20,820 bases of DNA from a virus, in the IMG/VR virus record IMGVR_UViG_3300036845_000432, positions 1-20,820 of that record. The stretch is one strand, 5' to 3'. Of the stretch, positions 20,038 to 20,820 are shown in pieces (the stretch's first letter is position 1; each line of letters begins with the position of its first letter). A program made the position numbers and the translations under genes. The notes beneath the pieces are model-generated. The model had not been told where the DNA came from, ran no database searches, and was given only the letters and a program-made list of their open reading frames with translations.

Positions 20038-20820
20038 TTAATTGCCGTTGACGATGTTGTCCCAGTAGTCGCTGTCGAGCGGTTTAGGCTTCACCCAGGC
20101 GGTTCGCGGCTTGGCAACGTCACCGCTCGGCGCGACTGTTGCGCTTGCGTCATGAAGCTCGGAACCTTGGCCATTCGGCTTTGGAAGTACGCCATCCAGC
20201 GCTGGAACTCCGGGCTGTTCGGGCTGACTGACGTCAGGCTCTGGTGCAATCGGCCCTGGTCCAGCGCTTGCTGGAACCACGGGTCCAGTTGTTTCCATTC
20301 CGGCTCGGCCATTTCCCGATTGCGCATGGCGCATAAACTCCCGGCGTTCGTGGGGGGACATTTCCAACAGCCGCATGGCGTCGGCTTGGCGAGCTTTTGC
20401 TTCCTCGGTCAGCCGCTTGCTTTCTGGCTTGCTTTCCTTGGTGGTATCAGGGGCCGGCGCGACTGAAGGCGGCTCGCGTGGCGCGCCCCCCACAGCGCTA
20501 GCGAGCGAGCCGCCTTCTGGCGCCCGCTCTGAGTTAGTCCCAGAGGAAACCCCACCCAAAATAGAAGAGACTTCTTTAGGCTCTTCTATTCTGGGTGTGG
20601 TTGTGGAGGCATTGCGGGGCGGCATTGCCGGCAATGGCATACTTGGATGATTGATAACGTTGAATTTTTTGCGTTTTTCCCAGCCCTTTGCGGCTCGTTT
20701 CGACTGAGTTTCGGAGAAGTTTCGCGCCTCTTTCAAGGTAGTTTCGACCCGGTTTGCGACCAGTTTGGCGCCAGTTTCGGAGGTATTTATTTTGAGTTTT
20801 CCCTTCGCAATCAGGCTCGC
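20038..20820 (-). CDS. Partial unknown protein with 11-residue repeats and disordered tail
   Basis: The frame is open to the window edge, so the true start lies outside; a TTG at 20736 is a possible internal start, but the repeat pattern continues upstream of it. Visible length is 260 residues. The N-terminal part has four 11-residue units (KGKLKINTSET, GAKLVANRVET, TLKEARNFSET, QSKRAAKGWEK) with fixed Lys 3 and Glu 10 and mostly Asn 7 and Thr 11, then KRKKFNVINHP. The remainder is rich in Pro, Glu, Ser and Ala and probably disordered, with one charged helix near the middle (LTEEAKARQADAMRLLEMSPHERREFMRH) and a C-terminal TAWVKPKPLDSDYWDNIV. Repeats are made by an 11-bp DNA array (see repeat entry). 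Function unknown; a DNA-associated role is only inference from the array. Confidence 0.6.
   Translation of the reverse strand, partial: ASLIAKGKLKINTSETGAKLVANRVETTLKEARNFSETQSKRAAKGWEKRKKFNVINHPSMPLPAMPPRNASTTTPRIEEPKEVSSILGGVSSGTNSERAPEGGSLASAVGGAPREPPSVAPAPDTTKESKPESKRLTEEAKARQADAMRLLEMSPHERREFMRHAQSGNGRAGMETTGPVVPASAGPGPIAPEPDVSQPEQPGVPALDGVLPKPNGQGSELHDASATVAPSGDVAKPRTAWVKPKPLDSDYWDNIVNGN
20550..20600 (-). repeat. Long imperfect inverted repeat inside coding sequence
   Basis: AATAGAAGAG (20560-20569) pairs perfectly with CTCTTCTATT (20581-20590) around an 11-base loop. After one mismatch the arms continue with ACCCAC against GTGGGT-type bases (20553-20558 with 20592-20597) and, after another mismatch, two more pairs. 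The total is about 18 pairs. It lies in the reading frame of the partial gene. No long T-run follows. It could fold in mRNA or, as a cruciform, in DNA. Confidence 0.6.
20665..20799 (-). repeat. Array of 13 A-tracts at exact 11-bp spacing
   Basis: On the + strand TTT begins at 20665, 20676, 20687, 20698, 20709, 20720, 20731, 20742, 20753, 20764, 20775, 20786 and 20797, with no exception. On the minus strand the unit is approximately CGAAACTNNNN; eight of 13 tracts are AAAC. The next expected positions (20654 and 20808) do not match, so the array is bounded on both sides in this window. Since 11 is not a multiple of three, the tract falls in all three codon positions and three units (33 bp) make one 11-residue protein repeat. 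Helically spaced A-tracts bend DNA, and 11-bp repeats are used by ParR-type centromere sites (general knowledge). Confidence 0.85.

Follow-up and report, generated by a model that had tools for sequence, protein, structure and literature searches.

Replication origins embedded in the gene of their own initiator are already known. In phage lambda, four 18-bp, imperfectly palindromic iterons with an AAAA core, about 20 to 24 bp apart, lie inside gene O right behind the DNA-binding part (nt 348 to 432) and are followed by an A/T-rich stretch. In phage SPP1, the direct repeats of oriL, which are bound by the replisome organizer gp38, and an AT-rich unwinding element are both located within gene 38 (PMC6316719); a second SPP1 origin lies outside this gene. 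A plasmid counterpart is the rep gene of staphylococcal pSK41 (RepA_N), in which the N-terminal domain of the product binds four Rep boxes located centrally in rep and the part of Rep that the origin encodes, a linker, is dispensable (PMC5703833). An active origin, oriJ, has been reported in the Rac prophage of Escherichia coli (PMC3945230).

The DNA analyzed here (the window; 20,820 nt, an entire linear IMG/VR record) carries an array of 11-bp units with a comparable layout inside a putative initiator gene of the DUF1376 family. As in lambda, the repeats are situated right behind the DNA-binding part, contain A-tracts (AAA here), and precede an AT-rich stretch, which is modest in the window itself. 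Unlike the four widely spaced iterons of lambda, arrays of the present kind comprise about 5 to 13 one-turn units of 11 bp, and the N-terminal domain of O belongs to a family other than DUF1376; with its 11-bp units, weak consensus, and DUF1376 domain, the locus is not a lambda-type ori, which would have 18-bp imperfectly palindromic iterons and an O-type N terminus. In layout, SPP1 oriL is similar in placing repeats and an AT-rich stretch inside the initiator gene, and SPP1 differs in having its second origin elsewhere. pSK41 likewise has its sites within the initiator gene, and structurally the DUF1376 domain matches plasmid initiators best (see below); the differences are that pSK41 is a plasmid of a Gram-positive host with four boxes and that the DUF1376 protein of a sister phage of the window matches no other Pfam family. 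In the Rac prophage, ydaU is itself a DUF1376 gene, in which GRTGTTCAAA-like repeats stand 33, 12, 11, and 13 bp apart behind the DNA-binding domain and are followed by an AT-rich stretch; ydaV adjoins it. The resemblance therefore extends to gene family, repeat position, and AT-rich stretch, whereas the spacing is not exact, and we found no literature source that maps oriJ to ydaU. The C-terminal half of YdaU is common to lambdoid O proteins, whereas its N terminus is DUF1376 and theirs differs; judged from its sequence, YdaU shows the modular logic of such putative initiators.

On the + strand of the window, TTT occurs at 20665, 20676, and every 11 bp up to 20797 (n = 13), and the rhythm is broken at both flanks (20654 and 20808). 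These positions agree exactly with the original prediction, as does the placement of the array in a genuine open reading frame (20038 to 20820, minus strand), which remains open at the contig end. The 13 phased AAA tracts of the coding strand (20665 to 20799, minus strand) are candidate initiator-binding iterons, and their phase is kept in two relatives, L015 and L171. Apart from multiples of the array itself, the longest run of any trinucleotide in the window at periods of 4 to 40 was 6, and the maximum runs in 150 second-order Markov sequences as long as the window were 4 to 7. Given the encoded protein and the codon usage of the contig, the probability of all 13 tracts is approximately 1e-7, and a run of 13 was never reached in 200,000 synonymous resamplings; together with the simulated maximum of 7, this rules out chance. 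The tracts demand scarce codons at set places in a GC-rich contig, namely, ATA (Ile), CGA (Arg), and GCA (Ala). In the unit consensus, the three A columns carry 2 bits each and every other column carries 0.47 bit or less. Because the units have little in common beyond AAA, Tandem Repeats Finder detects just 3.5 copies (20740 to 20777). The looser core CGAAACT that had been proposed is accordingly weak in the window copy, with the information residing in the A columns, and clean [CG]GAAAC copies are present in relatives. Three-A tracts bend DNA only weakly, so curvature carries no weight in the case. Arrays of 11-bp units are widespread, and that of the window is a long and diverged example.

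Because the record ends 21 bp past the array, the window holds the gene (20038 to 20820) without its 5' part. Its product is 66% identical over residues 2 to 260 to the protein of L002 and L015. L002 is a sister phage, its contig being 83 to 91% identical to the window over long stretches, and contains the complete gene (protein MVNWYKRDPDRALNGMVGLTLEERGAYNTILDLLY...). The full protein of L002/L015 matches Pfam PF07120 (DUF1376; E value, 4e-12; score above the cutoff) and a PHROG of primosomal proteins (3.9e-20). The window fragment, which is the part behind the domain, has no Pfam match, and its assignment as the 3' part of a DUF1376-type phage replication initiator gene thus rests on the 66% identity. 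With an E value threshold of 1, Pfam reported DUF1376 alone for the L002 protein, and the RepA_N profile was not matched. A structural model of the L015 protein shows a winged helix and, behind it, a single long helix (residues 83 to 117; mean pLDDT, 83); the array encodes this helix and the end of the wing. By the L015 alignment and domain model, the last residues of the winged-helix domain (ASLIAKGK...) are encoded at 20791 to 20820 (minus strand). Foldseek with the domain model returned no match at an E value of ≤0.001. On a second look at its matches, the closest solved folds were 4pql, 4pt7, and 5kbj (a Rep-DNA complex), with Z scores of 8.6 to 9.1, which are barely above the usual best Z of unrelated models and support resemblance only; DnaD N-terminal domains reached a Z of 7.3. 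We take these three plasmid initiators to be of the RepA_N type. A blast search of the region against phage records gave no match. Upstream in L002, positions 2 to 949 and 1209 to 2465 encode an MT-A70 methyltransferase and an ERF-type annealing protein. In L016 (1501 to 1827 and onward), the DUF1376 domain is apparently continued by an HNH-like segment (CRCGNDATEVHHL) within one ORF.

To characterize the array beyond this phage, 80 DUF1376 loci were sampled from IMG/VR, in addition to named phages. Many distant DUF1376 genes (30 to 47% identity) carry AAA at an exact 11-nt period from nt ~245 to 280 onward, i.e., at the same place as in the window, right behind the DNA-binding domain; the array is therefore not confined to one phage. 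The copies at 11 nt number eight in L087 and L015, seven in L081, six in L064, and five each in L050, L058, L069, L075, L078, L084, L085, and L086. In most relatives with the array, 11 is the best AAA lag, and within-gene synonymous codon shuffling weakens the signal in most relatives. AAA pairs pooled over 43 nonredundant genes peak at lags 11, 22, 33, and 44, with nothing at off-lags. At lag 11, there were 138 pairs, compared with 46.9 in whole-gene synonymous shuffles (z = 12.9) and 91.5 in shuffles confined to the 67-codon region (z = 6.9; reached in 0 of 500). Elsewhere, lag-11 pairs numbered 1 in the first 200 nt, 6 in the downstream part, and 27 in 444 flanking segments. The phase in homologs is thus kept beyond synonymous expectation. 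Since amino-acid-preserving shuffles retain an excess at lag 11 (91 versus ~20 at off-lags) that falls short of the observed 138, the amino acid sequence supplies part of the 11-nt period but not all of it. The view that the protein repeat is a mere by-product of the DNA period was consequently too strong, because the encoded long helix contributes to that period, whereas its premise of selection at the DNA level is upheld.

Synonymous sites provide a more direct view of this selection. In codon alignments restricted to pairs with identical amino acids, the fraction of differing codons upstream of the element was ~0.35 to 0.55 in the rhizobial, 0.36 to 0.65 in the roseobacter, and 0.23 to 0.67 in a third subfamily. 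Over the array and the stretch right behind it, the values were 0.03 to 0.3, 0.0 to 0.3, and 0.03 to 0.2, respectively, and past the element divergence returned to about 0.4 to 0.6 in all three subfamilies. No other observation argues as strongly as this synonymous collapse for a cis-acting element, some 180 to 200 bp long, that overlaps the gene. In the 78 nt aligned between the window and L171, 0 of 21 AAA positions had changed, versus 23 of the 57 others, and between the window and L015 several amino acid changes spare the AAA (e.g., CGA-AAC/GGA-AAC and GCA-AAG/ACA-AAA). The array in the DUF1376 family is almost certainly under selection at the DNA level, and the earlier claim of a DNA-level element hidden in a gene is borne out by the phase beyond synonymous expectation, the frozen synonymous sites, and the unchanged AAA positions.

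In DUF1376 genes, AT content peaks at gene nt 400 to 440, right behind the array (0.56 overall and 0.62 in genes with AAA arrays), and does so also in a subfamily whose iterons are not A-rich; in relatives, this flank belongs to the conserved block together with the array. The corresponding stretch of the window (20541 to 20660, minus strand, right 3' of the array) includes two 40-nt bins with AT contents of 0.53 and 0.55, compared with 0.25 to 0.42 per bin further downstream in the gene, and is thus a modest, weak candidate unwinding region. Within it lies an inverted repeat (20548 to 20602; 25-nt arms, 88% complementary, 5-nt loop) that may form an origin hairpin. At the same place, L015 has a perfect 14-nt hairpin of different sequence (1918 to 1952); the nucleotide identity of the two blocks is ~0.40, pairing is kept, and the z scores of single-strand folding are -5.2 and -5.8. 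A second inverted repeat of the window (20459 to 20523; 19-nt arms, 89%) lies in a block whose DNA is 100% identical between the window and L015 amid diverged surroundings.

The same layout is found with other iterons. A third DUF1376 subfamily has GGAGAAGTC at 11/10-bp steps at the same place, read in two frames. In its members L029 to L079 (subfamily ENFYRRDPSKALSGMIGL), the steps alternate between 11 and 10 bp at gene nt ~320 to 400, and an inverted copy, CACTTCTCGA, stands behind the iterons. TTCAACG-type units recur every 11 bp (occasionally 12) in phiLM21, Bordetella IFTN2, Pseudomonas PfDIW6, AH02, and PfAn1, where a short tandem repeat, AT-rich or purine-rich, comes next, e.g., (ATACAG)n, (AACCAG)n, or (AGAAG)n. 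A DNA-first search of viral contigs identified 44 loci with three TTCAACG copies at 11 bp and 67 with three [CG]GAAAC copies at 11 bp; in most of them, the array occupies the central part of an ORF of ~220 to 350 amino acids, on its coding strand. Clean tandem arrays include GGAAACCGACC (four copies in L186), CGAAACGAACG (L191), and CGAAACGCAAA (L173). Homemade initiator profiles (DUF1376, DnaD-like, and other) matched 38 of 44 TTCAACG loci and 35 of 67 GAAAC loci at 11 bp, versus 0 of 29, 1 of 80, and 0 of 4 GAAAC loci at 10, 12, and 13 bp, respectively; the DnaD-like and TTCAACG-group profiles were built partly from array-bearing sequences, which favors the 11-bp set, whereas the DUF1376 profile and the PHROGs are free of this bias. 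All 20 array ORFs compared with PHROGs, which were handpicked mostly for mid-gene arrays, matched families including replication initiation, DnaD-like helicase loader, or primosomal proteins. In L122, L144, L166, L176, and L183, 11-bp TTCAACG or GAAAC arrays lie outside recognizable initiator genes, some with several clusters per contig. Several DUF1376 genes adjoin a DnaC-like loader or DnaB helicase, and those of PBC5 and Atu_ph08 adjoin terminase and not a helicase loader. The GC skew of PBC5 and PfDIW6, both complete phages with such genes, has no clear switch at the gene.

An explanation at the protein level would be that a long amphipathic helix, with a pitch of ~11/3 residues, puts Lys, Glu, and Asn codons every 11 nt, from which A-rich codons follow. 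The encoded stretch is indeed modeled as a single long helix, and shuffles that preserve the amino acids retain much of the lag-11 excess, yet shuffles that hold both amino acids and local codon usage constant fall short of the observed phasing, synonymous divergence collapses over the element, and GGAGAAGTC is translated in two frames. In DnaD-like and other initiators, moreover, the arrays are translated into different peptides, with a rotating frame. We therefore regard a purely protein-level origin of the period as very unlikely. Chance or a recent tandem expansion in this phage alone, for which the weak consensus outside AAA in the window might speak, can be practically dismissed: simulated sequences do not exceed 7, the array recurs in distant relatives, and the units are too diverged for a recent event even though AAA is kept. 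The suggested recent expansion of an 11-bp unit thus found no support for the window copy, in which AAA is nearly all that the units have in common; tandem arrays of a cleaner kind occur in relatives.

The element could also serve another function in DNA or RNA. Repeats of 11 bp are typical of parC, and the gene adjoins terminase in two phages, so a partition centromere (parC/tubC-like), a packaging site (pac/cos), or the operator of a regulator might be considered. Nevertheless, arrays accompany initiator genes regardless of whether these stand beside a helicase loader, DnaB, terminase, or none of them, and the conserved block includes the AT-rich flank. No ParR-like protein was seen among the genes inspected around the array (in the window, whose contig ends at the array, and in L002). 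Partition and packaging are judged less likely because there are no consistent neighbors, and we consider this group of functions improbable as a whole. Among the options that the original prediction had listed, replication is accordingly favored over partition, packaging, and transcription control, since the arrays track initiator genes whatever the neighbor. A role in mRNA, in which phased AAA/GAAAC motifs would bind a regulator or mediate antitermination, draws on the fixed orientation of the motif, which reads in the sense direction of the initiator ORF in 42 of 42 TTCAACG and 57 of 66 GAAAC cases. An array at a constant position within the gene would show a constant strand in any case, and the specificity for one turn over 10, 12, and 13 bp, together with harmonics up to lag 44, points to double-stranded DNA, which makes an RNA-level role extremely improbable.

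We consider it likely (probability, roughly 0.85) that the array constitutes the iterons of a phage replication origin located within the coding sequence of its own initiator. Observed are the period, its recurrence at the same place in distant DUF1376 genes, the DNA-level selection, the specificity of 11-bp spacing for initiator genes, and, in relatives, the AT-rich flank; from these we infer that the product of the gene binds the array, that the DNA melts and a helicase is loaded, and that the locus is the origin used. As expected for an origin in an initiator gene, the repeats lie inside the gene behind the DNA-binding domain, the DNA over them is under selection, and an AT-rich stretch lies beside them, clearly in the families as a whole and weakly in the window. 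The N-terminal winged helix of the DUF1376 protein, predicted for the window phage from L002/L015, would bind the 11-bp-spaced repeats, one per helical turn, so that many initiator copies would line up on one face of the DNA. The adjacent AT-rich stretch may act as an unwinding element that opens when stressed by the bound initiators, and the C-terminal part or a neighboring loader could then bring in a DnaB-type helicase.

We lean toward the broader proposal that one-turn, 11-bp, mid-gene iteron arrays are a general phage origin format across winged-helix initiator families (DUF1376, DnaD-like, and others), in which initiators, spaced one to a turn, would line one side of their own coding sequence as an uninterrupted array, and initiator gene, linker peptide, and origin would evolve as one exchangeable module. 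A literature search, which is weak evidence of absence with most subscription journals outside its coverage, returned no report of 11-bp origins in DUF1376-type genes, and the publications mentioning DUF1376 do not, by their titles and abstracts, concern replication origins. In the literature searched, the one-turn format and its spread thus appear to be unreported. If this reading is correct, DUF1376, a domain of "unknown function," would gain a concrete job, and many phages and prophages without an annotated origin would receive a candidate one, located with base-pair precision. The locus would also illustrate two codes in one sequence, in which an 11-nt rhythm cannot stay in frame and the DNA message therefore becomes visible as frozen synonymous sites. 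One motif per 11 bp in an early gene would then be a predictor of phage origins and of their initiators.
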